From the NCBI GenBank assembly GCA_003139775.1, contig PLGI01000113.1:1-50822 (forward strand): a DNA stretch of 50,822 nt, read 5' to 3'. The position numbers were made by a program, and so were the translations under genes. This document shows, in pieces, positions 29,011 through 50,768 of this stretch; positions within the stretch are counted from its first letter, which is position 1, and each line of letters starts with the position of its first letter. The notes beneath the pieces were generated by a model. That model searched no databases. It was not told the DNA's origin and saw nothing but the letters and a program-made list of their open reading frames with translations. Source of the stretch: Syntrophaceae bacterium. GTDB taxonomy: Bacteria; Desulfobacterota; Syntrophia; Syntrophales; Smithellaceae.

Positions 29011-30015
29011 ATGAAAATCACGGGCAAGAACACCAAAGTAAGCTTTGGAGACGTTTCGCAGCAAGCTGCTGATATTATATCCCGCTTATGCGGGATTGTT
29101 CGACCTGCAAACTTCGGTGCACTTTGTTTCCGAAGCTTGGGTCTCATTACCCTCCGCTATGCGGGATTGTTCAACTATCCAATTCCGCTGCGCTTCGCTT
29201 GCGAAATTGGAGTTTCACGAATAAAATTCCTCTCGAAAAATTTTCTGAGTATTGCGCTAACAGTATTATTAATTTTTACAATTAACGCAACAGACGCAGC
29301 CGCTGGATTATTTGGGCCGCCTCAAACCGTTTCTAAAGAAGCAGGTGGATTAAATACCGCCATTGGGTACTGGTATCATGAGGATACATACACCAATGGT
29401 GCAGATCATATAATCAGGCAGAATGAAGTTTATTCGCAAGTGGCTTATGGCGCAAAAAATATTTGGGAAATATACGCGCGAATCGGGGTATCGGATCTAA
29501 AAATATTCGACGTGTTCAGTTCCACGAATGCTTCAACTACGACTGATAAAAATAATTTTGAAGAAAACTGGAAGTTTTTCGGCACTCTGGGAGCAAAGGG
29601 CTTTTACCCCATCAACAAGACATTCGGAATAGGCGCTTTTATTCAAGGAACATATTACTTCAGTAACTTTACGGACGATGTTGCGGGAACCAATGGCATC
29701 ACGCCTTTTACAACCGATCTTAAAGTTAAAAATCTTTTTGATGTGAATTTCGGTGTTGGATTTCAAGCCACCGTTCCCTATGGTATCAAATTATATGCGG
29801 GCCCCTATATTTATTATTCGGAGGCAAAGGTATCTTTGGCCGCCAACATTCCAGGCCTTGAATACGCAGCCGGAAATGTTTCTATTGAGAACAAGTCAAT
29901 TGCCGGTGGATTTGCAGGAATCGACATACCACTTGCCAAAGGATTTCGTCTGAATTTTGAAGGACAATATTCAGACAGATTCTCCGCCGGAGCTGCCGTG
30001 ACTTATACATATTAA
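29011..30015 (+). CDS. Outer-membrane beta-barrel protein with repeat-derived 5' end
   Basis: Signal-peptide-like SIALTVLLIFTINATDAAAG near residue 85, alternating barrel-like C-terminal region ending in YTY; codons from 29011 to about 29240 overlap the dispersed repeat. Confidence 0.7.
   Translation: MKITGKNTKVSFGDVSQQAADIISRLCGIVRPANFGALCFRSLGLITLRYAGLFNYPIPLRFACEIGVSRIKFLSKNFLSIALTVLLIFTINATDAAAGLFGPPQTVSKEAGGLNTAIGYWYHEDTYTNGADHIIRQNEVYSQVAYGAKNIWEIYARIGVSDLKIFDVFSSTNASTTTDKNNFEENWKFFGTLGAKGFYPINKTFGIGAFIQGTYYFSNFTDDVAGTNGITPFTTDLKVKNLFDVNFGVGFQATVPYGIKLYAGPYIYYSEAKVSLAANIPGLEYAAGNVSIENKSIAGGFAGIDIPLAKGFRLNFEGQYSDRFSAGAAVTYTY
29014..29240. repeat. Dispersed repeat, copy C (inside the beta-barrel ORF 5' end)
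   Basis: AATCACGGGCAAGAACACCAAAGTAAGCTTTGG...TTTCGCAGCAAGCTGC matches 48092-48150; CACTTTGTTTCCGAAGCTTGGGTCTCATTA at 29120-29149 matches 10758-10787 at 29/30. Confidence 0.75.
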
Positions 30016-30688: not shown

Positions 30689-31120
30689 ATGAAAATTGTT
30701 TATTCATATTATGTATTGGATATCATGCATAAAGGTCATCTCCTGATGATGAAAAACGCAAAGGCGATCGCCGGAGAAGACGGGAAACTAATTGTGGGAA
30801 TCCTGACGGATGAGGCGGTTATGGAGAAAAAGCCCAAACCGCTGCTTTCCTTTGAAGATCGGATAGCGCTTGCGGCCGCGATAAAATATGTGGATGTGGT
30901 GGTGGCCCAGGAAACCTATTCGCCATTGCAGAACGTGATGAGGATTAGACCGGATATCCTGATTGAAAGTTCCAGTCACGATGAGCAGGACATCGAAAAG
31001 GCAAGAAAGGTTATGGAAGAAATCAACGGGAGCGTTATTGTGATCCCCTATTTTCCCGGGCAGTCATCGACAAACATCAAGAATGAAATATCACGCATAT
31101 TAAAAGACAAAAAAACATGA
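30689..31120 (+). CDS. Cytidylyltransferase-like nucleotidyltransferase (HxGH superfamily)
   Basis: 143 aa; MHKGHLLMMKNAK (HxGH), VGILTDEAVMEKKPKPLLSFEDRI, C-terminal SSTNIKNEI; like TagD/PCYT2-type cytidylyltransferases. Confidence 0.85.
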   Translation: MKIVYSYYVLDIMHKGHLLMMKNAKAIAGEDGKLIVGILTDEAVMEKKPKPLLSFEDRIALAAAIKYVDVVVAQETYSPLQNVMRIRPDILIESSSHDEQDIEKARKVMEEINGSVIVIPYFPGQSSTNIKNEISRILKDKKT

Positions 31121-31263
31121 AAAACAAACTTATATTCTGGAATATCTGGTCATCTTATGCAACGTACTATTTCGGCAAGGTCAATCTGAACAGGATGGTG
31201 CCAGCGTTATTGGCCACGCAAAAAGATTTGAGCATGATGAACCTTACCGCAGTCTATTTTTAA
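31117..31263 (+). pseudogene. Truncated N-terminus of an MFS transporter
   Basis: ATG overlaps the upstream stop (ATGA); 48 codons MKNKLIFWNIWSSYATYYFGKVNLNRMVPALLATQKDLSMMNLTAVYF* resemble the TM1 region of GlpT/UhpT-like MFS proteins, then stop. Confidence 0.55.
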
Positions 31264-31341
31264 AATTTTAGATTTAATAATGACTTTTAGGTTTTGCTTT
31301 AAAGTTATCTATTAAACAATAAACTAAGAGGTGTATCAACC

Positions 31342-31854
31342 ATGCGAATTGCGGATATCATGACGTCTTTACGGATTATTATGACCCCGGTAATTATATG
31401 GCTCCTATTACATGACGAGAGGGTGGTTGCCTACTATCTTTTCGCCGCCGGAGCGATAACCGATACCCTGGACGGTTATTTTGCAAGAAGAAGCAAAAAG
31501 AAGGTGACGTACGGGCACAATTTTGATGCGTTGGCTGATTTTATCTTCGGGTTTACGACGATATTTGTTGTTGTTTACGTGTCCAAAGCGTGGCCACTTC
31601 TGATCGTCACCCTGACGGGAATAGCCTTCTGGACCCCGATCATCATCCTTATCTCCCGGAAAGCCGGGACTCTGGATATACCGCATCTGGAGACGAATCT
31701 GTTGGCTGCGGCGGTTTATCCGACGGTCATGGCATACATCATCGGCTGGCAATATGCATGGATCGTGCTTCTTTTCACGGCGGTTGTGATGCTTCACTAC
31801 ATGTGGAAGTATATCGTGTATGTACGCAGCCTTTACCGGGAAAAGATGCCCTGA
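31342..31854 (+). CDS. CDP-alcohol phosphatidyltransferase family protein
   Basis: 170 aa; DTLDGYFARRSKKKVTYGHNFDALADFIFG matches the DG(x)2AR(x)8G(x)3D(x)3D-type active-site motif. Confidence 0.9.
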   Translation: MRIADIMTSLRIIMTPVIIWLLLHDERVVAYYLFAAGAITDTLDGYFARRSKKKVTYGHNFDALADFIFGFTTIFVVVYVSKAWPLLIVTLTGIAFWTPIIILISRKAGTLDIPHLETNLLAAAVYPTVMAYIIGWQYAWIVLLFTAVVMLHYMWKYIVYVRSLYREKMP

Positions 31855-32064
31855 TCAACGGTCATTGCTTTTTTTTAACATGGCTTTGATTTTGTCCTTG
31901 AAGTGGTTGTAGAGATACAATCCCAGGACAAACCCGAGAATCAGCAATTGAGGCAGGGTAATGCTGTGCCCCTCCTCGGCGGCTGCGAAAACCGCCTGTG
32001 GAAACGCCAAATAAAAAAGTGCTGCCGTAAGAATGACTGTTGTAATGGTTCTGAAATGTTTCAT
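31855..32064 (-). CDS. Small single-pass membrane protein
   Basis: 69 aa; signal peptide ending AVFAAAEEG, second hydrophobic segment LPQLLILGFVLGLYLYNHF, basic tail. Confidence 0.55.
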   Translation of the reverse strand: MKHFRTITTVILTAALFYLAFPQAVFAAAEEGHSITLPQLLILGFVLGLYLYNHFKDKIKAMLKKSNDR

Positions 32065-32079
32065 ATTTAATCCCTTCTA

Positions 32080-32979
32080 TTACATTTTCTTTAATCCTAA
32101 CTGTCGCCAGAAGAACAGCATGACGAGCCAATCTATCGCGTGGTGGGGCAACGCCCAGGTAAGAAAAGCGGCCAACCTGGCATCCCAGCCGACGATGTAA
32201 CGTGTTCCAGGCCTTTTTGCCGTGAGCGCCCGGGCAACCGTCCTGGCAACCACATCAACGGAAACAGCAACCATTTTTATCCTTTTTTTATCTTTAAGGA
32301 TTTCAACGACCCCATTGATGGTGGGACCATAGAGGTCAAAGGCCTCCTGCGGGAAATTTTTTGCCTTGATTGCCGCTTCTGTCTCAACTTTGTCCCACAA
32401 GGGGGTATAGACGATTCCGGGTTCAATGATTGAAACCGGGATTTTCCATGGTTTAAGCTCCAGTCTGAGCGAATCGGTGATGGCTTCCAGAGCGGCTTTT
32501 GAAGCTGAATACGGGGCCGCGTAGGGTTGGGGCATGATGGCGGCGCCTGAACCCATGTTAACGATGCGGCCATGCCCCTTCCGGATAAGAGACAAAAACG
32601 CCTGGGTGACGGCGATGTGTCCGATAAGGTTGACCTCCAGCAGGTTGCGGATTTCAGCGATGGAAAGAAACTCCAGGAGGCCGCTCGCAGTAGCAATGCC
32701 CGCATTGTTAACCAACCCCGCCAGACCGTCGTCGCCCACCTCACCGGATACGAACTTCAAAGCGGAATCGATGGATTCTGAATCGGTTACGTCTATGAGA
32801 ACCGGGGTGAGTCTACCGGAGGCGTTTTTCCTCAAGTCGTTGCCGTCAGCTTCCCTGCGCACCCCGGCAAAGACTTTAAACCCTATGCTGTCAAGGTAAA
32901 GCGCGCAGGCCTTGCCTATCCCGGTTGAGGTTCCGGTTATGAGAATCGCGCGTTTCCCCTCTTCTCGACTCCCAGACAT
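32080..32979 (-). CDS. Short-chain dehydrogenase/reductase (SDR)
   Basis: 299 aa; ILITGTSTGIGKACALYL, LVNNAGIA, MGSGAAIMPQPYAAPYSASKAALEAI (S-Y-K). Confidence 0.94.
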   Translation of the reverse strand: MSGSREEGKRAILITGTSTGIGKACALYLDSIGFKVFAGVRREADGNDLRKNASGRLTPVLIDVTDSESIDSALKFVSGEVGDDGLAGLVNNAGIATASGLLEFLSIAEIRNLLEVNLIGHIAVTQAFLSLIRKGHGRIVNMGSGAAIMPQPYAAPYSASKAALEAITDSLRLELKPWKIPVSIIEPGIVYTPLWDKVETEAAIKAKNFPQEAFDLYGPTINGVVEILKDKKRIKMVAVSVDVVARTVARALTAKRPGTRYIVGWDARLAAFLTWALPHHAIDWLVMLFFWRQLGLKKM

Positions 32980-33219
32980 GGATATAGCCTCCCCTCTATA
33001 AAGATATTTATGAATTAACCGGATAAATTTTAACTTAATACCCTTAAGCTTTTTCTTTGTCCAGATAAAATTTGACGGCCGCTGGGTAAGTTTTTTAAAA
33101 AAAATACATCTTTAGGCTGATTTACATCGGCCTGTAAAAGGGTTATAAAATATACTTTATTGGTATTGGTCCATTTAAACTTGAGTAAATAAAAATCTAT
33201 TAAAAAGTATGATCTGTCG

Positions 33220-34350
33220 ATGAAAAAAGAAGAAGCAACAAAGGAATTGTTGAAACAGACCAAAGAAAAGGAAGAAACCCTTTACGAGTTGCTCAACCAA
33301 CCGTTGAGTTTTATCCAGAAGGCTCTGGTTGATGGACTTTATACCTTATATTTTGATGTGCTCGGGAAGAAACCCAAAATCGATGAGGATGCGGCAAGGC
33401 AGGCTTGGGAAACATTTAAAAAGTATTTTCCCGAAAAAGTCGAGGAGATGCTTGCACAGCTCCTTGATGACCCGGAGGGCTATCATCAAAAAGTGGTAGC
33501 GTTTGAAAAAATATGCCCCCCTGTTTTTGTTGATTTTCCCACAGACCCAAGCTATTACCGCGTCATCATCAGTGACCCCTCGCGTCAGCTTCAAGAGGTT
33601 CTGACTAAACTGGCCCTTTTTTCAAATTTTTCATCTTCAAACGGTAAGTATTCTGCCCTTGATGTGGGCACCGGGTATGGCCGGCTCGCCAGGGTTATAG
33701 AAGACACATTGCGCTCTCTTTACGCGGGAGGGAAGGGCTACAGGGTCTTTGGCCAGGATATATTGGAAGGCAATGTAGACGCAGCAAAAAAATTAAACCG
33801 AGAGACGGGATCGGAGATCACCTTTTTTACGCGTGATATGAATCAAATCCCCTTTCCGTCGGATTCATTAAACCTTGTCAACACGACCGACGCATCCTAT
33901 CTTAACTTCAGGCACAGAAGGCCGTTTTATATCGCCGAGATCGCAAGGGTCCTGCGCCCTGACGGCGGGGTATGCTGCATAACCAATCCCAATGAGCACA
34001 CTACCCTAAAGGAGTATAACTATTTAATGATGCGGACCAACTACAGGACTTATTTGAATCCTGTTAATATCACGAAGGCCATGGTTCTCGGCAAATGCTC
34101 CATATATATAGACGCTCTTTCAAAAGCCAGACCAGACTGGGCGCTTACAACCACTGCAGACATGACGAATGCATTAAAAAAGGTATTGAAAGCAGACATT
34201 ATTGATGTCAACAACTGGCCGAAAAAGGGTGGCCCGTCAATATACAGCGGGTTTACCTTTGCGGTTAACGACAGCACAAAAACGCAGATCGACAGGTACA
34301 CAAAATTCCGGGAGCGCCAAAAAGAAGCGGAACAGTGGTTTGATATTTAA
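33220..34350 (+). CDS. Class I SAM-dependent methyltransferase
   Basis: 376 aa; motif I LDVGTGYGRLARV, later DMNQIPFPSDSLNLVNTTDASYLNFRHRRPFYIAEIARVLRPDGG. Confidence 0.87.
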   Translation: MKKEEATKELLKQTKEKEETLYELLNQPLSFIQKALVDGLYTLYFDVLGKKPKIDEDAARQAWETFKKYFPEKVEEMLAQLLDDPEGYHQKVVAFEKICPPVFVDFPTDPSYYRVIISDPSRQLQEVLTKLALFSNFSSSNGKYSALDVGTGYGRLARVIEDTLRSLYAGGKGYRVFGQDILEGNVDAAKKLNRETGSEITFFTRDMNQIPFPSDSLNLVNTTDASYLNFRHRRPFYIAEIARVLRPDGGVCCITNPNEHTTLKEYNYLMMRTNYRTYLNPVNITKAMVLGKCSIYIDALSKARPDWALTTTADMTNALKKVLKADIIDVNNWPKKGGPSIYSGFTFAVNDSTKTQIDRYTKFRERQKEAEQWFDI

Positions 34351-34497
34351 GGCGCAAAATCGGATGAGGAGCGGGTTTTTATACTAGAATGCGACTAGTA
34401 TTTTCCCTGTATTAATCCGGTAAGAAATCCTATTGCAAATATGCTATTATCATAATAAAAAAAATTCGTATAAACATTCAGGAAAAAGGAGAACATC

Positions 34498-35598
34498 ATG
34501 GGATTAAACACGGTAATTGAAAGCCTTGGTGTGTATACCCCCGAGGGGAGGCTCAGCACAAAGGAGCTTGTTGACGGGTGCAAGGTAAAGCCCGTTTTTG
34601 ATCTTGAGGAATTAACCGGGATTAAGACCCGCCCTATGGTTGCGGATAATGAATATGCTCTAGATCTTGCCCGCGAGGCGGCAACCCGGTGCTTTGAAAT
34701 CTCCAAATATCAGCCGGAAGATATCGACCTGGTCATCTGCACCAATATCTCCCGCTACAACGGTCCTAACTGGAAGGCCAGCTTTGAACCATCCACCGCA
34801 GCCTTGCTTGCCCGTGATTTTGATTTTAGCAATGCGATTATCTTTGACGAGCCCAACGCCTGTGCCGGAATGTTTACTGCCCTTTATATTGTGGACGCCT
34901 ACCTGAAGGCCGGTTTTGTTAAAAGAGCAATGGTGATAAGCGGCGAAGCCTTGACCTGCCTTGCCCGCACCGCGCAGAAGGAAATGAGCGCCCCCTTTGA
35001 TCCGCAGATGGCTTGCTTAACTGTTGGCGATGCAGGGGCGGCGTTTATCCTTGAGCAGACGGATAATCCGGATGTCGGATTTCATGACATGGATGCCTTT
35101 ACGGTTGCACAACACTGCGACTACTGCATAGCCTCATTCAGCAAGGAGCCGCATGGCGGATTTGTGATGTACACAGATTCCATTAAAATTCACCAGATCG
35201 CTATCGGCATGACCGCGGAGCATGTGGGGCGGATGGTCAAAGGAACCAAATGGGAAAACAGCGATAATCATCATTATATCATGCATCAGACCGGAACACG
35301 AGCCATCAAAACGACCCGGAAAAGCATTAATGACTGGGTGGGGACAGAGGTTTGTTCCGAGAAGAATTCCATTGTCAATGTCGTCGAACGGGGAAACAGT
35401 GCATCCACCGCCCATTTTGTCGCTCTGTGGGATCATATAAGAAACGGGGCCATAAAATCCAAGGAGAACATACTTTTTGCGGTTCAGTCATCCGGGATCA
35501 ATCTTGGCGTTGCCCTGTATACATTGGATGATCTTCCTGCAAGAGTAATGAACTGGAGTAGGATGGAACAACGGGAAGCGATCAAAGAAGCTGTGTAA
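34498..35598 (+). CDS. 3-oxoacyl-ACP synthase III (KASIII/FabH-like)
   Basis: 366 aa; Cys region FDEPNACAGMFTALYI, His region HHYIMHQTGTRAI, Asn region VERGNSASTAHFVAL: intact C-H-N triad. Confidence 0.88.
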   Translation: MGLNTVIESLGVYTPEGRLSTKELVDGCKVKPVFDLEELTGIKTRPMVADNEYALDLAREAATRCFEISKYQPEDIDLVICTNISRYNGPNWKASFEPSTAALLARDFDFSNAIIFDEPNACAGMFTALYIVDAYLKAGFVKRAMVISGEALTCLARTAQKEMSAPFDPQMACLTVGDAGAAFILEQTDNPDVGFHDMDAFTVAQHCDYCIASFSKEPHGGFVMYTDSIKIHQIAIGMTAEHVGRMVKGTKWENSDNHHYIMHQTGTRAIKTTRKSINDWVGTEVCSEKNSIVNVVERGNSASTAHFVALWDHIRNGAIKSKENILFAVQSSGINLGVALYTLDDLPARVMNWSRMEQREAIKEAV

Positions 35599-35609
35599 AG
35601 GAAAATGCA

Positions 35610-36500
35610 ATGGGAATTACAATCAATAGCATCGGGCTGTGTGAAAATAAGAATAAGTCCGTAAAAACATCATTAGAACTGTGCCGGCGGGCTGCTGAGC
35701 CCTGTATAAAGAAGTCCGCCTACAGCAAAGAGGATATCGGTCTGGTGGTCAGCGTTTCCGTTTATCGGGATGATTACTTCTGCGAGCCGTCATTTTCGAG
35801 CTTTGTTCAGAATGATCTCAAGATCAACCACGACAAGACGGACTCTTTAGGACCCAAGACACTTTCCCTTGACGTATTGAACGGAGCCATGGGTTTTTTA
35901 AACGCCTGTCAATTGTGCTCTGCCATGATAACCGCCGGAAAGGTAAAGACCGGGCTGGTGGTCAGTAGTGATCTTGTCAATGGAAGTATCAGTGAAAAAG
36001 GTTGTCCCCCGGGATTTCTTCCCTCCGGCGCCGCCATGCTGCTTGCCGGAGAAAAGAACGGCGGCTCAGGGTTTAAGACTTTTTATTTTAAAACATTCGC
36101 GGAAATGCAGGATGCCTGCGAATCATATGCATTTCATGATAAAGATCATATGACTATGATATTTAAGAGGAATCCTGATGTCGAAGATATATACCTCCGT
36201 GCAATATCGATGGGGGTCTCTGAATTCCTGAAAAAAGAAGCCGTTGGGCTGGATGACTTTGACATGATCATCCCTTCCCAAGTTTCTTCCGGGTTTATCA
36301 CAAAAATGGCCGGCATCCTGGGCGTGAAAAGGGAAAAGATGATTGATGTCACCCGTGAAGGGGGGAATTTATTTAACGCCTCACTTCCTGTGGCCATGGA
36401 TCATGTCTTTAAATGCAACAAGCCAGAGCCGGGGCAGAAGGCCCTTATCATCCATGTTGCTTCCGGGATACAGGTCGGCTGCGTTGTATATGAGTTTTAA
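35610..36500 (+). CDS. KASIII-fold protein lacking catalytic Cys and His
   Basis: 296 aa; LSLDVLNGAMGFLNACQLC (Ala at the Cys position), FDMIIPSQVSSGFITKMA (Ser at the His position), GGNLFNASLPVAMDH (Asn retained); 11 nt after the intact KASIII. Confidence 0.82.
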   Translation: MGITINSIGLCENKNKSVKTSLELCRRAAEPCIKKSAYSKEDIGLVVSVSVYRDDYFCEPSFSSFVQNDLKINHDKTDSLGPKTLSLDVLNGAMGFLNACQLCSAMITAGKVKTGLVVSSDLVNGSISEKGCPPGFLPSGAAMLLAGEKNGGSGFKTFYFKTFAEMQDACESYAFHDKDHMTMIFKRNPDVEDIYLRAISMGVSEFLKKEAVGLDDFDMIIPSQVSSGFITKMAGILGVKREKMIDVTREGGNLFNASLPVAMDHVFKCNKPEPGQKALIIHVASGIQVGCVVYEF

Positions 36501-36572: not shown

Positions 36573-37712
36573 TCAATTTCTTAAATATTGCATTAGTTTA
36601 ATTTTATTCTCAGCAGGGGATGATTTTGGACGGCCGAGATCTTTTCTAGCACCTTTTTTCACTCGAATTTCAAGGAGTCCGAGGTCTTTTGTGGTGATGA
36701 ATTCTTCCAATGCTTTTATAAGTTCTTCTTCAGTTGTTGCCAACCACGTTTTTTGATGGCCACATGCTTTTGCAATTTTTCCAAAATCGACTTTGAACCC
36801 GCACGTTGGCTGACCTCCGACTGAATCGTGAGCGCCGTTATTGATAACAATGTGTTTTAGGTTTGTAATACCTGATTCGGCAATAGTGGTGAGTGCGCCC
36901 ATGTGCATGAGCATGGCGCCGTCGCCATCGATGCAAAAAATAGTTCGATCTGGTGCGTGGAGCGCAATCCCAAGTGCGATTGAGGAGGCATGTCCCATGG
37001 AGCCAACAGTGAGAAAATCAGAATCTCCTTTTTGGCCCATCTTGATCCTGCTTTCATAAAGTTCGCGTGATGCCATGCCTGTGGTTGAAACAAAAACAGG
37101 ATTATTGATTGTTGATGTGATTTTTAAAATGATTTGAATGGCCTCTTCACGAGTCAGTGAATAAGGAGATGGCGTTGTATTTTTTTTGAGAGCTTCGTAT
37201 GGCTCAAAGGTATCTTTTCGAATGACGAGTGCGTAGGGTGCCTTTGAGGAATGCATAAACTCAAATGCTTTTTTTATCGCCGCTTCGGCGTCAACGAATT
37301 CTTGTGGAAGAACTTCGTATGGAATCCCCAGCGTTTTAAGTAACTCTAATGTAATTTCCCCTTGTTTGACATGTTGTGGTTCATCTTTGACTCCTGGTTC
37401 TCCACGCCAACCGATAATGAGCAGCATGGGAATGCCGTAGACTTTTGGATCTGCAAGTGAGGTCAGGGGATTAACGGCATTTCCTTCACCAGAGTTTTGC
37501 ATATAGACGAGAGCGGGTTTATTTGTGGCGAGATAGACACCGGCCGCAAGTCCTACGGCCACGCCTTCATTTGCTGTAATGAAATTTTTATTTGAAGGCA
37601 CACTGTCTTGGAGGTAGGCGCAAAAGAACTTTAAAAGGGAATCTGGAACTCCACAGTAGAAATCGATGCCTTTGCTCGTCAAAAGTTCGAAAAATTTGGC
37701 ACAGTTCAACAT
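36573..37712 (-). CDS. aepY: Phosphonopyruvate decarboxylase (TPP-dependent)
   Basis: 379 aa; FYCGVPDSLLKFFCAYLQ, ANEGVAVGLAAGVYLATNKPALVYMQNSGEGNAVNPL, TPP motif GDGAMLMHMGALTTI; adjacent to PEP mutase. Confidence 0.93.
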   Translation of the reverse strand: MLNCAKFFELLTSKGIDFYCGVPDSLLKFFCAYLQDSVPSNKNFITANEGVAVGLAAGVYLATNKPALVYMQNSGEGNAVNPLTSLADPKVYGIPMLLIIGWRGEPGVKDEPQHVKQGEITLELLKTLGIPYEVLPQEFVDAEAAIKKAFEFMHSSKAPYALVIRKDTFEPYEALKKNTTPSPYSLTREEAIQIILKITSTINNPVFVSTTGMASRELYESRIKMGQKGDSDFLTVGSMGHASSIALGIALHAPDRTIFCIDGDGAMLMHMGALTTIAESGITNLKHIVINNGAHDSVGGQPTCGFKVDFGKIAKACGHQKTWLATTEEELIKALEEFITTKDLGLLEIRVKKGARKDLGRPKSSPAENKIKLMQYLRN

Positions 37713-37723
37713 AGAAAAATCCG

Positions 37724-39040
37724 CTAAACTTTATTGGGTAAAATTTTCAAAATTTCCGAGACAGACATACAATGCGCATTTGATGCTTCCAATGCTCGCC
37801 CATTTCGTAGAATAGATTCGGCTGCTTTTACCATTGCGGGATACGCTGCGCGAAGGAGGTGGTTTGCGTAAATTACGATATTGACGCCAGCTTCAACTAA
37901 CTCTTTTTCATAAATTTGGCAGTATGTTGTAGGAACGACAACGAGTGGAACTTTCTTTTCAAATTTTTGATATTCCTTACAAAATTGTAAAATTTCTGAT
38001 TGATCTTTTGCTTGGCTGTGAATCATTATGCCATCGGCACCGGCCTTCATATAGGCACCGGCGCGAGTGAGGGCATCGTCCATTCCTTTTTTCAGAATGA
38101 GGCTTTCGATGCGCGCGATAATCATGAAATCATTTGTAACCTGAGATTTTTTACCGAGGGAAATCTTATTGCAAAAAGCCTCAACGGAATCTTGAGTTTG
38201 TGAAACATCAGTTCCAAAGAGTGAATTCATTTTGAGACCCTTTTTATCTTCAATAATAACGGCGGAAACTCCAAGCCTCTCCAGTGTCCGGACCGTATAG
38301 GTAAAGTGTTCTGTGATGCCTCCGGTATCACCGTCAAAAATCATGGGCTTCACTGTAACTTCAAAGATGTCATTGACTGTTTTAAGCCGTGATGAGAGGT
38401 CTACCAGTTCAATGTCCGGACGGCCGTGAGCTGTTGATTCTGTTAAGCTGCTGAGCCAAATAGCATCAAATGATTGAGTGCCTCTTCCCGGATTTTTAAC
38501 CTCTGTTTTTTCTACAATAAGAGCACTTAACGCATTATGGGCCTCAGAAACGCGCACAATATTTTTAAGACTTAAGAGACGACGCAATTTTGCCAAACGA
38601 AGTTGTGGTGTTGTTCCAATTTCTCGAAGATGGACATGAAGTTCAGTTGAAGAGATACCTTTTGTGTATTCAGGTTCAACCATCTGGCCGCCCCACTCTG
38701 CAAGAATGGCAATGGCTTTGGCACGCACATCTTTGAGTGGCCCTTCGCGCCAATCCGTTCCGTGAACCATGTAATCAGGTTTATATTTACGAAGATTGTC
38801 CTCGTAATCTGGAGTCTCTTGCATGACGACCTGATCGACGCCTTTAACATTTTCAATCACAGCTTTGCGCTGTTCGTAACTCATGAAAGGAAGTCTTTTA
38901 TAGGAAGCAATAGCCTTATCTGTAAAAAGGCCAACCATCACTTCGCCGAGTTCTTGCGCAACTTTAATAATATTCAAATGCCCAGGATGAATAAAATCAA
39001 CAGCCATTGGAACATAAACGAGTTTTTTCTTTTGAGTCAT
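37724..39040 (-). CDS. aepX: Phosphoenolpyruvate mutase with N-terminal cytidylyltransferase domain
   Basis: 438 aa; N-term VDFIHPGHLNIIKVAQ...GISST (HxGH cytidylyltransferase), C-term FDGDTGG and IIEDKKGLKMNSLFG (PEP mutase EDKxxxKxNS signature). Confidence 0.94.
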   Translation of the reverse strand: MTQKKKLVYVPMAVDFIHPGHLNIIKVAQELGEVMVGLFTDKAIASYKRLPFMSYEQRKAVIENVKGVDQVVMQETPDYEDNLRKYKPDYMVHGTDWREGPLKDVRAKAIAILAEWGGQMVEPEYTKGISSTELHVHLREIGTTPQLRLAKLRRLLSLKNIVRVSEAHNALSALIVEKTEVKNPGRGTQSFDAIWLSSLTESTAHGRPDIELVDLSSRLKTVNDIFEVTVKPMIFDGDTGGITEHFTYTVRTLERLGVSAVIIEDKKGLKMNSLFGTDVSQTQDSVEAFCNKISLGKKSQVTNDFMIIARIESLILKKGMDDALTRAGAYMKAGADGIMIHSQAKDQSEILQFCKEYQKFEKKVPLVVVPTTYCQIYEKELVEAGVNIVIYANHLLRAAYPAMVKAAESILRNGRALEASNAHCMSVSEILKILPNKV

Positions 39041-39053
39041 ATCAGGAACTCCA

Positions 39054-40073
39054 TTATTGAATACATGTTGGACAAAGTCGCAGTCCTTCTAGATTTCCTT
39101 CTTTGTGTTTTTTTCTTAATTCTTCCATTGCAGGTGAATTCCAAATTTCATAAAGAGAATTTTTATGAATGTTGCCGACGGCAATCTTTCGTGCGCGATG
39201 AGCTGCGCACGGTAAGGCCAATCCATCTCCGTGAATAAAGAGAGATTCCCATGCATAAGAACATTTTTGCTTTCCCTCTTTAGGAGAAAAAGATGTGGCA
39301 TGGGCGCGTGAGTCATTTTCTTCCTGATCAAAAGGACTAATCGGGACGTAGCGCTGGATGGCAACATAATCAACCTTTTTGACCCAATATTCGCGAAAGG
39401 CTTCGACTTCATGTTTATTATCTTCTTGGAGAACTAGACTAACGCGTGTTGCCGGAAGTTCGACATTGCGCTTGATCTTTAAATTTAAAAAAGTGTCAAT
39501 ATTGGCCATGACTTTATTATAGTCTGCATCAACTCGAATCTTTTTATAAGTTTCAGGAGTGAGAGCATCAACACTAAAACAGAGTCTTGTGAGGCCAGTG
39601 TCGAGAAGTTTTTTTGACATTCTTTCTGTGAGGAGCATTGCATTGGTATTCATGTGAATATCCATGATGCCGCGCTTTGTTGCGTAATTGATTCGTTCGA
39701 TTAAATCTTTATCGAGCAGAGGTTCGTTGGCGTGGTTCATTCCAATCGAAGGGCAGTTGTGTTCGGCACATTCATCGATGAGTCGACAATATGTTTTGAA
39801 ATCCATTTTTCCTGCGTATGAATAACCTTTTTCAAGATCAGGATGACCGTGGACACACATTTTGCAGTGAAGGTTGCATCGGAATTTTGTTTCAAAACGA
39901 ACAAAAAGAGGAAAGTCCGGGCGATATTCCATTCGAGAAGCAGCAGCCCAATTTCGGCGATACTCATCCCATTTTGCTCCAAATTTTTTTCGAAAAGGGG
40001 CATCAGGATCTTCTTTGAGCGATGAATTGAGCACTCTGCCGGCGGATGTTTCTTGTTGTTTGATTGTCGCCAT
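39054..40073 (-). CDS. Radical SAM protein with SPASM domain
   Basis: 339 aa; CNLHCKMC (CxxxCxxC), C-term CSYAWESLFIHGDGLALPCAAHRARKIAVGNIHKNSLYEIWNSPAMEELRKKHKEGNLEGLRLCPTC. Confidence 0.92.
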   Translation of the reverse strand: MATIKQQETSAGRVLNSSLKEDPDAPFRKKFGAKWDEYRRNWAAASRMEYRPDFPLFVRFETKFRCNLHCKMCVHGHPDLEKGYSYAGKMDFKTYCRLIDECAEHNCPSIGMNHANEPLLDKDLIERINYATKRGIMDIHMNTNAMLLTERMSKKLLDTGLTRLCFSVDALTPETYKKIRVDADYNKVMANIDTFLNLKIKRNVELPATRVSLVLQEDNKHEVEAFREYWVKKVDYVAIQRYVPISPFDQEENDSRAHATSFSPKEGKQKCSYAWESLFIHGDGLALPCAAHRARKIAVGNIHKNSLYEIWNSPAMEELRKKHKEGNLEGLRLCPTCIQ

Positions 40074-40506
40074 ATATTATCCCCTCAATACGCTATTTTT
40101 CAGAGAGAAACTTATCATTTTCCAAGTGTGAAGTATAGGAAATTTAAGACTCTTGGCGTGTGGTGTAATATTTTGATAATAATTTCCTTTTTGTGTGGTG
40201 AAGTATAAGAAGTCCGGTCTTGTATGTCAAGATAATCTTGATAAACTGACCACCTGAATTGTCTCATAATAAAATGTAATTGTAGGGACGGATAAAAAAA
40301 GAAAGCATTATGCTTTGAAATATCGCATGGAGGGACAAAATTAGAAAAACAATATTAAAGAAAGAAGTAGATTATCTGTTTCATTTTATCCACAATTTCG
40401 AAGTACTTTCTTCTACGGATTAAAAGAAAAAGTGTTTGCCTATCCCTAAGATGCCATCAGTGACGGCACAAAGATCCAACCAAGAAAGTAAAACAGAACT
40501 AATCGC

Positions 40507-43029
40507 TTAAGGGTTTACCTTTTTATAGAATATTTTTTTTGCCAGTTCCGCCGTTAAAATATAAAGCGCCATAATAATTCCCAGTATCATAAGAAACGAC
40601 ATGGGCAGGTGTACAAAATCAAATATCTTTCCGAGAGGTGTAAAAGGAAAGATGAGCGTAGCAATAACAATAGCAATTGTGGCGATGAATAGGTATTTCC
40701 CTGGCATGCTCTTAAAGAATGGTCTTCTGCTGCGAATGACAAGCACGATAATTGAGGCGGAAATAACAGATTCTACGAACCATCCTGTTCTGAATTGCGC
40801 AGGTGTTGCGTGAAGGATGAACAACAAAACACCAAAGGTTAGATAATCAAAAACCGAACTGATCAAGCCAAAAGTGATCATGAATTTTTTAATAAAAGAA
40901 ATATTCCACCGTCTTGGGTAATTTACCATTTCGACGTCTGTCCGATCAGTGGCAATGGTCATTTCCGGAAAATCAGTCATCAGGTTCGTCAACAAAATTT
41001 GTTTGGGCAGCAGAGGAAGAAAAGATAGAAACAGAGAAGCGCCCGCCATACTGAACATGTTTCCGAAATTTGCGCTGGTAGCCATAAAGACATACTTCAT
41101 AGTATTGGCAAGCGTAGTCCGGCCTTGATGTACACCTTGCACGAGCACCTCCAGATTCTTTTCTAGAAGCACGATATCGGCCGATTCTTTGGCCACATCC
41201 ACTGCAGTATCAACAGAGATACTCACATCTGAGGCATGGAGGGCGGAAACATCATTGATGCCGTCTCCGATATAACCCACAACATATCCGGCTTTTCTGA
41301 GCGCAATGATAATGCGTTCTTTTTGATTGGGCTCTACTTCCGCGAAGATGTCCGTTTGGGTTACCTTTTGCAGTAGAGCGGCATCACTTATTTCCCGCAG
41401 TTCAGGGCCGGTGAGGATTTTGGCATCAGGCTTTCCCACATCCTTACTTATCTTGGCGGCGACGAGGCGGTTATCTCCGGTGATAACTTTCAGGGAAACA
41501 CCAAGTTGCTTAAGGCGATCGATCGTTTCCAAAATTCCCTTTTTAGGCGGATCGAAGAAAAGCAGGAAACCGAGGAATGTCATATCTTGCTCGGAATCTT
41601 TATTGATGACAGACTCTGTTCCCATATCCCGCATGGCAACGCCAAGCACACGGAAACCCTGGTTACTGAAGTCCTCAAACTTCTGCTGGATCATTTGCTC
41701 CACTGTGGTTGTATCTATCTTATCCCCGGCCTTGTTTTCCGCAAAAGGACAAACAGCGAGCACATTCGAGAGGGCCCCTTTAGTAACCATGAAATACCGG
41801 CCATCCTTTTTGATCATGATACTCAAGCGCTTGCGGATGAAATCATAGGGAACCTCGTCAACTTTTTCATAACCGGAAATATCCTGCTGCTTATAAGAAC
41901 GGATCGCTTCATCAATAGGATTGGAAAAACCTTTTTCATAGAAAGAGTTCAGATAAGCATGAAAGAAAACCCGATCGCTGGGATTGCCGTCGATGTCTGT
42001 TGCCGAATGCAGGCGTACCGTACCTTCCGTCAGAGTTCCCGTCTTATCTGAACATAGAACATTCATACTTCCGAAGTTTTCTATAGAGGCAAGCCGCTTT
42101 ACAATGACCTTTTGCTTGGCCATTATTTTAGCGCCGTGAGCCAGGTTGATGCTGATAATGGCCGGCAGCAACTGAGGTGTCAGTCCTACAGCGAGGGCCA
42201 GAGAAAAAAGGAAAGATTCGAGAACAGGCCGGTGAAAAAAGACATTTATGGCAAAAACGGCAATGACAAGCAACAGGGTCACTTCGAGCAGTAAATAACC
42301 AAACTGCCGGATGCCACGTTCAAACTCGGTCTCTTGGGGTCTCAGTTTCAACTTCTCGGAGATTTTTCCGAACTCCGCCTGCTTTCCCGTAAAAATCACA
42401 ACAGCCTTGGCTGTGCCGCTGATAACATGGGTTCCCATAAAAAGACTGTTGGTGCGTTTGGCAAGTGGTGTTTCCGAAGGCAGAAGACTGGCATTTTTTT
42501 CGACAGGGAAGCTTTCACCCGTCAGGGTTGCCTCATCCACGAAGAGATCCCTGGATTCCAGAATAAGGCTGTCGGCGGGAATAGCATCCCCGGCATTCAA
42601 CATAACGACGTCGCCCGGGACAACATCTTCCAGCGCAATGTCACACTGGCTGCCGTCTCGCAGGACAGAGGTCTTGATCTTGACTATCGCCAGCATCTTT
42701 TCCAGAGCGTTAGCGGCGCCCTTTTCCTGCCAGAATCCCAGAAGGCCGCTGATTAAAACGATTGTAATAATAATAATGGCATCTGCCGGGTCATGAAGAA
42801 AAGCGGAGAGCCCTGCCGCAAAAATCAAGGTCAGGATAATAGGACTTTTGAATTGGGCAATGAGCAATGCCAGCGTGTCAGACCGTTTCGGCGGCTTCAG
42901 AAGGTTTGCACCATACTGTGCCAGACGCTCTTTTGCTTCCTCAGCGCTTAATCCTTCCATCTTCGCATTAAGCTGAGTCAGCAAATCGGATTGAGGAATA
43001 CCCCAATATTTAGGTGGCTGCTGAATCAT
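40507..43029 (-). CDS. mgtA: Magnesium-translocating P-type ATPase
   Basis: 840 aa; DKTGTLTEG, TLTGESFPVEK, VGYIGDGINDVSALHASDVSISVDTAVDVAKESADIVLLEK, IATDRTDVEMVNYPRRW (MgtA/B-type). Confidence 0.94.
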   Translation of the reverse strand: MIQQPPKYWGIPQSDLLTQLNAKMEGLSAEEAKERLAQYGANLLKPPKRSDTLALLIAQFKSPIILTLIFAAGLSAFLHDPADAIIIITIVLISGLLGFWQEKGAANALEKMLAIVKIKTSVLRDGSQCDIALEDVVPGDVVMLNAGDAIPADSLILESRDLFVDEATLTGESFPVEKNASLLPSETPLAKRTNSLFMGTHVISGTAKAVVIFTGKQAEFGKISEKLKLRPQETEFERGIRQFGYLLLEVTLLLVIAVFAINVFFHRPVLESFLFSLALAVGLTPQLLPAIISINLAHGAKIMAKQKVIVKRLASIENFGSMNVLCSDKTGTLTEGTVRLHSATDIDGNPSDRVFFHAYLNSFYEKGFSNPIDEAIRSYKQQDISGYEKVDEVPYDFIRKRLSIMIKKDGRYFMVTKGALSNVLAVCPFAENKAGDKIDTTTVEQMIQQKFEDFSNQGFRVLGVAMRDMGTESVINKDSEQDMTFLGFLLFFDPPKKGILETIDRLKQLGVSLKVITGDNRLVAAKISKDVGKPDAKILTGPELREISDAALLQKVTQTDIFAEVEPNQKERIIIALRKAGYVVGYIGDGINDVSALHASDVSISVDTAVDVAKESADIVLLEKNLEVLVQGVHQGRTTLANTMKYVFMATSANFGNMFSMAGASLFLSFLPLLPKQILLTNLMTDFPEMTIATDRTDVEMVNYPRRWNISFIKKFMITFGLISSVFDYLTFGVLLFILHATPAQFRTGWFVESVISASIIVLVIRSRRPFFKSMPGKYLFIATIAIVIATLIFPFTPLGKIFDFVHLPMSFLMILGIIMALYILTAELAKKIFYKKVNP

Positions 43030-49475: not shown

Positions 49476-49709
49476 GAAATTTCCTCCTCTTTGTTTGGAA
49501 TATTACCGACATAAATACACTATTTCTGCCCATACACAAAGGAACACCTCCAGTAAATTGCTCATTTTCATTCTTGGTTATGCCGACAGGTTGGCATGGG
49601 GGTTCCATCGGAAATAATCAAAAAAAAGTGACCTTCACCCCAAAAACCGTACCAGCAGATAAGTTAGTTTTCTGGCATAATAAAAATATTGAGGAGGAGG
49701 GATTATGCC

Positions 49710-49943
49710 ATGAAGAAGAAGTTTACGGAGGAGGAGATTGCCTTTGCTTTAAAGCAGGTGGAGCATGGGACTCAGGTGGCCGAAGTTATCAGGAAGATGG
49801 GGATCACGGAGCAGATCTATTACCGCTGGAAGAAGAAGTGTGGTGGTTTGGGCATGAGCGAGTTGAGGCGTTTGAAGCAGATGGTGGCGGACTTGAGCCT
49901 TGACAAGTACATGCTTCAGGAGGTACTCACAAAAAAATTATAA
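49710..49943 (+). CDS. IS3-family transposase OrfA
   Basis: MKKKFTEEEIAFALKQVEHGTQVAEVIRKMGITEQIYYRWKKKCGGLGMSELRRLKQMVADLSLDKYMLQEVLTKKL. Confidence 0.9.
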   Translation: MKKKFTEEEIAFALKQVEHGTQVAEVIRKMGITEQIYYRWKKKCGGLGMSELRRLKQMVADLSLDKYMLQEVLTKKL

Positions 49944-50768
49944 GGCCTGCCGCAAGAGGGTTTTGGTAACCTTTCTGTAAGATAGTTTTCGGGTCAGCGA
50001 ACGACGGGCTTGTGAAGTTCTTATATTCAGGAGATCAAGTTACCGATATCATAGTAGCGCAGATGGTCAGGCCGAGTTGAAGATGAGAATCAGGGAGATT
50101 GCCGCATTTAGGGTGCGATATGGCTACAAGCGAATCCATGTACTTCTCCTGCGAGAAGGTTGGGAAATTAACCATAAGCGGGTCTACTGTATTTACTGTG
50201 AAGAAGAAGGTTTGAATTTGCGCAGGAAGCGATCCAAAAAGCATAAGAGAGATAACCTAAGGGTAACCCGGGAGAACATTCAGAATGTTAACGACTGCTG
50301 GGGTATGGACTTTGTATCAGATAGTACTTTTCACGGGAGGCGTTTTCGTATTTTGACTATTGTAGATATATTTAGTAGGGAATGTCTTGGACTTGACGTT
50401 AATCTAGGGATCAAGGGGTGGCACTGCTTGATCATATAAAATCGTTGTGGGGTATTCCTAAGAGTATACGCTACGACAATGGTCCTGAGTTTGTTTCGAA
50501 TATTCTTGATAAGTGGGCTTATGAAAACAAAGTAGCTCTTGATTTTTCAAGACCAGGGAAACCAACGGATAATGCATTTGTGGAATTATTTAATGGCAGC
50601 TTACGTGACGAATGCCTGAACACAAATTGGTTTTTGTCTTTGGATGATGCTCGTGATAAGATTGAAGCATGGCGGACGGATTATAATGAGTTCCGTCCTC
50701 ACAGTTCTTTGGATAACAAAACACCAAGTGATTACGTAAGAACAGAGCTTTTGAGGCTGGAAAACTAA
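49944..50768 (+). pseudogene. IS3-family transposase OrfB, disrupted
   Basis: In-frame TAA at 49978-49980 and a frame change/deletion near 50420-50440 between DIFSRECLGLDV and LLDHIKSLWGIPKSIRYDNGPEF; C-term RPHSSLDNKTPSDY. Confidence 0.85.

Follow-up and report, generated by a model that had tools for sequence, protein, structure and literature searches.

A cytidylyltransferase (CyT) subtype that is paired with a radical SAM (rSAM) enzyme is the new and interesting part of a three-gene phosphonate operon from a 3.4 Mb Syntrophaceae-like MAG. The whole stretch of DNA analysed, referred to as the window, is 50,822 nt long and is contig C163 of this genome; of its named relatives the nearest is PLMV01000011 ('Syntrophaceae bacterium isolate fen_1165'). 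The operon encodes an rSAM protein, a fusion of CyT and PEP mutase (PepM) domains, and a phosphonopyruvate decarboxylase (Ppd). Sequence comparisons suggest, with a probability of about one half, that CMP activation and the radical step are one unit acting on a two-carbon phosphonate, similar to Fom1 and Fom3 of fosfomycin synthesis but with a non-B12 enzyme. Judged by tree position and diagnostic residues, two different radical enzymes share one CyT subtype as their partner, one by adjacency and the other by fusion. An open-access literature search found no paper that joins SPASM radical SAM proteins with phosphonopyruvate chemistry, and none that joins radical SAM, a fused cytidylyltransferase and phosphonate.

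The operon and its three proteins

The genes are on the minus strand in the order rSAM, fusion, Ppd according to the ORF list (Table 1), the fusion being separated by 13 nt from the rSAM gene and by 11 nt from the decarboxylase gene. This matches exactly the three-gene operon with 11–13 nt gaps described in a first-pass annotation of the window. The next upstream gene encodes a Mg-transporting P-type ATPase (positions 40507–43029), so the operon appears to be limited to three genes. The promoter-like site between them is weak, since the total number of such sites in the window equals the chance expectation from shuffled sequences. No glycan gene adjoins the operon, and the neighbouring gene on the decarboxylase side is found, within the genus, only in the window genome. 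An Rfam scan of positions 30000–50822 gave no match. At the contig end, ORFs at positions 49689–50768 resemble an IS3-type transposase pair by eye.

Table 1. Positions of the operon features and of nearby lipid-type genes in the window.
Feature	Positions	Strand	Basis
Radical SAM protein with twitch-type C-terminal domain, 339 aa, first operon gene	39054–40073	-	PF04055 + PF13186
CX3CX2C motif CNLHCKMC (residues 66–73), radical SAM cluster	39855–39878	-	Sequence, alignment A2
Twitch domain (C271/C289/C334/C337), one auxiliary Fe-S cluster predicted	39063–39263	-	Cys invariant in A2; matches BtrN C-terminus
Cytidylyltransferase-PEP mutase fusion, 438 aa	37724–39040	-	PF01467 + PF13714; TIGR02320
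CyT domain (residues 1–141), rSAM-linked subtype	38618–39040	-	Clade of 11, 99/94 support; residue contrasts
PEP mutase domain (residues 152–436) with EDKKGLKMNS	37733–38587	-	TIGR02320 over cut-off
Phosphonopyruvate decarboxylase, 379 aa	36573–37712	-	TIGR03297 484.2 bits, cut-off 312.5
Promoter-like site TTGACA-17-TATACT, 11/12 match, upstream of operon	40202–40230	-	Weak
Separate small cytidylyltransferase, 143 aa, candidate link to operon	30689–31120	+	PF01467
CDP-alcohol phosphatidyltransferase, 170 aa, candidate lipid transferase	31342–31854	+	PF01066 63.8 bits; syntenic in G037

Family-model matches of the three genes are far beyond chance. The fusion has PF01467 at residues 15–133 and PF13714 at residues 152–411, and an HPGH motif is present, which bears out the earlier description of an HxGH cytidylyltransferase joined to a PEP mutase. 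The PEP mutase assignment is supported by TIGR02320 (396.6 bits, cut-off 319.6) and by EDKKGLKMNS, which conforms to the EDKxxxxxNS motif. With the TIGR03297 match of the decarboxylase, these models support the annotated route in which PepM converts PEP to phosphonopyruvate and Ppd converts this to phosphonoacetaldehyde. The solved structures nearest to the fusion are 5x3d and 5unc, and the closest solved CyT sequence is 5x3d, which we take to be the CyT domain of S. wedmorensis Fom1. The CyT-PepM fusion architecture is known and ordinary. PF01467 is fused to 23.6% of Ppm enzymes, and Fom1, whose CyT makes CMP-hydroxyethylphosphonate (CMP-HEP), is cited as an example (Rice et al. 2019, PMC6697681).

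The rSAM protein belongs to the radical SAM superfamily, with the CX3CX2C motif and a PF04055 match over cut-off (59 bits), and it also matches PF13186 (49.6 bits). The annotation had called it a radical SAM/SPASM protein. The first half of this name stands, but a full SPASM domain has seven Cys and two auxiliary clusters, and the four Cys at the C-terminus denote a one-cluster twitch domain instead. PF04055 and PF13186 are the only domain matches; there is no B12-domain match, and the protein is not a Fom3-type B12 radical SAM methyltransferase. Its AF2 model (pLDDT 80.6, pTM 0.83) is nearest in fold to BtrN (2-deoxy-scyllo-inosamine dehydrogenase), followed by SuiB, DesII, MoaA and viperin-CTP complexes, with query-normalised TM-scores of 0.4–0.6 that represent superfamily-level similarity. 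BtrN shares the combination of a radical SAM domain with a one-cluster twitch, but at 16–17% identity the likeness to this dehydrogenase is one of fold only. A comparison of the window rSAM protein with viral contigs gave no match.

A cytidylyltransferase subtype with radical SAM partners

The annotation had proposed a neighbourhood survey for pepM with this radical SAM protein. The arrangement rSAM-fusion-Ppd, with rSAM directly upstream of the fusion, is found in only four loci, of which two are from sister genomes and two are on short contigs (4.1 and 5.6 kb). These are the window, L026 in the sister genome G037, L025 in a Planctomycetaceae MAG (rSAM 76% identical to that of the window) and L099 in a Mucispirillum MAG (about 62%). 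A tree of PepM domains unites the window with L025 and L026 and leaves L099 unresolved. In L099 the operon is followed by two genes, one APS-kinase-like and one transferase-like, and its contig has no Fe-dependent alcohol dehydrogenase (Fe-ADH); the contigs of the other relatives stop too early to show whether one follows. The APS-kinase-like gene (PF01583, L099:3047–3565) is directly 3' of the decarboxylase and recalls the cytidine diphosphoramidate kinase of the Campylobacter capsule.

The Synergistaceae locus L047 encodes a radical SAM protein of another type, joined in one chain with a cytidylyltransferase. Such rSAM-CyT fusions are present in 8 of 188 Synergistota genomes, and a PepM gene adjoins in all eight. 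A PF12804-CyT-PepM arrangement occurs in seven of the eight loci (confirmed with Pfam in L152; in some loci the assembly splits it) and is mostly followed by Fe-ADH and Ppd. With PF12804-CyT-PepM beside rSAM-CyT, L047 and L150–L156 show three nucleotidyltransferase domains per pathway. In the rSAM tree the proteins form two far-apart clades, the window type and the Synergistaceae fusion type. The fusion type is without one twitch Cys, and the two radical enzymes may differ in action. The AF2 model of the L047 fusion had a pLDDT of 51 and was set aside.

The CyT domains behave differently from the rSAM proteins. In a tree of 97 CyT domains, built on an alignment of only 135 columns, all 11 rSAM-linked domains form one clade with 99/94 support. 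Four of these are PepM-fused (window, L025, L026, L099) and seven are rSAM-fused (L047, L150–L154, L156). The 86 other domains lie outside, including Fom1 (5x3d), all domains from Fe-ADH operons and two viral-contig rows. Other CyT trees agree on the clade once the second CyT of the window, which is very divergent, is omitted. Members of the clade differ at positions that are otherwise near-constant: L39F, V91M, D95T/K, Q102L/M and V109A. The window domain has F39, M91, T95, L102 and A109, and it is neither on the Fom1 side of the tree nor a carrier of the L39/V91/D95/Q102 set of Fom1-type HEP cytidylyltransferases. P11 was dropped as a marker of the subtype because two viral-contig CyTs carry it too. 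The rSAM-fused CyT of L047 is 76% identical to the window CyT and only 60% identical to the PepM-fused CyT of its own locus. Occurrence of this one subtype with two different rSAM proteins is the main reason why the radical and CMP-activation steps are thought to share a substrate. The subtype was recognised after the fact, and the Synergistota set was gathered with a CyT-containing query and so is not independent of it; only L047, found with a PepM query, is independent.

Two IMG/VR contigs filed as viral, 3300029319_009117 (L164:337–5199) and 3300009593_004315 (L165:8034–12875), encode LicD-like and methylphosphonate synthase-like proteins (the latter matching 6b9s at 7e-76) together with a CyT-PepM fusion, Fe-ADH-like ORFs and a decarboxylase that is divided between two ORFs; should they be of viral origin, they represent a virus-borne phosphonate pathway. 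CyT-PepM fusions with 51–55% identity are also found in the putatively viral INPHARED entries MT837901.1 and MT836947.1 (short 'Bacteriophage sp.' from human faeces).

The step after phosphonoacetaldehyde

An AEP transaminase had been reported as missing. This holds for the operon, and a genome-wide search for phnW-like genes with TIGR03301 (PhnW/AepZ, cut-off 360.8) gave no match over cut-off, with a best score of 47.6 bits. Across G000, G037, G534, G535 and G536 no match passes the cut-off, and the mark of an AEP/Pnt pathway is not found in these genomes. The window genome has three strong class-V aminotransferase matches, which are cysteine-desulfurase-like by eye. PntC-dependent Pnt pathways, as in Treponema denticola and Atopobium rimae, resemble the window operon in the cytidylyl activation of a phosphonate, but PntC is a PF12804 protein that uses AEP and occurs with an AEP transaminase, whereas the window has PF01467 and no transaminase (PMC6697681).

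The missing transaminase is ordinary; the odd feature of the window operon is the absent Fe-ADH. Among 80 loci of the closest relatives of the fusion, 65 have a Fom1-side CyT and enough downstream DNA, and an Fe-ADH is near the fusion in 61 of these. The relatives thus appear mostly to use the Fe-ADH (HEP) route, as in fosfomycin, and rarely a transaminase. The CyT-PepM/Ppd/Fe-ADH operons of many phyla (e.g., L020, L027, L030) have a fusion and a decarboxylase homologous to those of the window, with the fusion mostly at 59–68% identity, but they carry an adjacent Fe-ADH and a Fom1-type CyT; the window operon has neither and has the rSAM gene instead. In the ORF list no Fe-ADH, and hence no FomC-like one, adjoins the window operon. 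Of the six Fe-ADHs in the window genome, none is an orthologue of the cluster type. The best of them has 36% identity to any cluster Fe-ADH at 219 bits, compared with a median best hit of 397 within the set. The Fe-ADH gene at positions 248–1405 was considered as the missing FomC and is not supported, being generic (best identity 36%) and 35 kb away. The rSAM protein as a substitute for Fe-ADH was rejected, as six Synergistaceae operons carry both rSAM-CyT and Fe-ADH.

Proposed pathway and alternatives

The closest known system is the fosfomycin pathway of Streptomyces (Fom1, Fom2, FomC, Fom3), which likewise combines a CyT-PepM fusion with a decarboxylase and a radical SAM enzyme. The window operon differs in that it is without a FomC-type Fe-ADH, its rSAM is a twitch protein with no B12-domain match and not Fom3, and its CyT does not group with the Fom1 side of the tree. 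In fosfomycin synthesis Fom1 makes 2-HEP-CMP and the radical SAM enzyme Fom3 uses 2-HEP-CMP as its substrate (PMC8158854). By this precedent, the substrate of the window rSAM would be a CMP-phosphonate or else the free phosphonate immediately ahead of its activation. The CyT, distinct from the HEP type, would attach CMP to a two-carbon phosphonate, either phosphonoacetaldehyde itself or a reduced form made by an unlinked dehydrogenase. CMP would serve as a handle for the rSAM as it does for Fom3, and a C-methylation of the Fom3 kind is not expected without B12. The best guess for the chemistry is a BtrN-like two-electron oxidation or another hydrogen abstraction at the side chain; that it is an oxidation in particular is a guess from the fold model and unlikely to be right in this specific form. 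The modified phosphonate may then be released or transferred to a glycan or lipid of the cell surface. The annotation had expected a CMP-activated phosphonate for lipid or glycan transfer. CMP activation is indeed implied by the fused domain, but the Fom3 precedent shows that such a transfer is not a necessary consequence (PMC8158854). The rSAM step is still unexplained, as was stated earlier, but with its pairing to one CyT subtype the gene is not a mere attached tailoring gene.

Besides the small number of loci, the dependent Synergistota set, the lost twitch Cys and the short CyT alignment, two further points stand against the reading of CMP activation and radical step as one unit. The alcohol or aldehyde for the CyT is without an assigned enzyme here, and the rSAM family at large occurs in surface-glycan loci and could have a sugar substrate. 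The second point leads to an alternative that we regard as rather unlikely, an ordinary operon for surface tailoring by CMP-HEP or CMP-AEP with unlinked enzymes, where the rSAM modifies an acceptor sugar or CMP-sugar. Distant homologues of the window-type rSAM (29–37% identity) are in O-antigen/flagellin glycan loci with NeuB and PF02348 cytidylyltransferases, and the operons of L020 and L099 run into CDP-glycerol-type transferases and glycan genes. PF02348 CMP-sugar cytidylyltransferases are found in four of five distant loci (L113, L114, L161 and L162, not L163) and NeuB in two; they provide a context for a CMP-linked rSAM and also favour the sugar substrate. This alternative explains neither the fusion of a separate rSAM type to the same CyT subtype nor the change of subtype with the rSAM partner, and no glycan gene is next to the window operon. 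Paired radical SAM genes occur in two of the four PF02348 loci. A truncated second copy of the window-type rSAM in G037 (contig C23, L112:1634–2455) adjoins a helicase-like gene and is away from any PepM.

A scheme in which the rSAM and this CyT subtype serve to activate another phosphate compound, itself not a phosphonate, for later attachment to the phosphonate is improbable. The Synergistaceae operons, with a Fom1-side CyT in the PF12804/PepM triple fusion and another in the rSAM fusion, hence have two or three nucleotidyltransferases in one pathway, which agrees with such a scheme; however, the operons of the window, L025, L026 and L099 each have a single CyT, which is of the rSAM-linked subtype and PepM-fused, so that a phosphonate is the natural substrate. 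A sporadic, horizontally acquired operon with little or no current function is very improbable: the operon is in only 2 of 17 genus genomes (the window genome and G037), PepM-like matches are in 4 of 155 genomes of the class, and G037 has the truncated rSAM copy and a fusion broken at an assembly N, but none of the window genes is broken, their motifs are conserved, and the operon is 93–96% conserved between the sister genomes.

The relatives L020 and L099 point to surface glycans as the destination. L020, a further Fe-ADH-type locus from a member of the same order as the window genome, encodes in sequence the fusion, Ppd, Fe-ADH, a flippase-like protein, a CDP-glycerol-type transferase and a glycosyltransferase. 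A phosphonolipid product is possible. The small cytidylyltransferase and CDP-alcohol phosphatidyltransferase genes are 5 kb from the operon, and the former is syntenic in G037 and, within the genus, present only in the two operon-bearing genomes, a co-occurrence that may reflect kinship of two close sister genomes. Along with genes for an SDR, a methyltransferase and two KAS III-like proteins, these two genes occupy positions 30689–36500, a region that is largely syntenic in G037 and possibly an unusual lipid locus.

We tentatively propose, as somewhat short of an even chance, that a non-B12 twitch rSAM remodels the carbon chain of a CMP-phosphonate and that the matching CyT subtype, found with two rSAM types in several phyla, is a marker for such surface phosphonates. 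The steps past phosphonoacetaldehyde in surface phosphonate pathways are largely unknown, and a CyT subtype that tracks its rSAM partner offers a concrete, testable pair. The pairing would carry the use of CMP as a handle, as in fosfomycin synthesis, beyond B12 methylation, and the subtype may predict which pepM clusters make products other than HEP or AEP.
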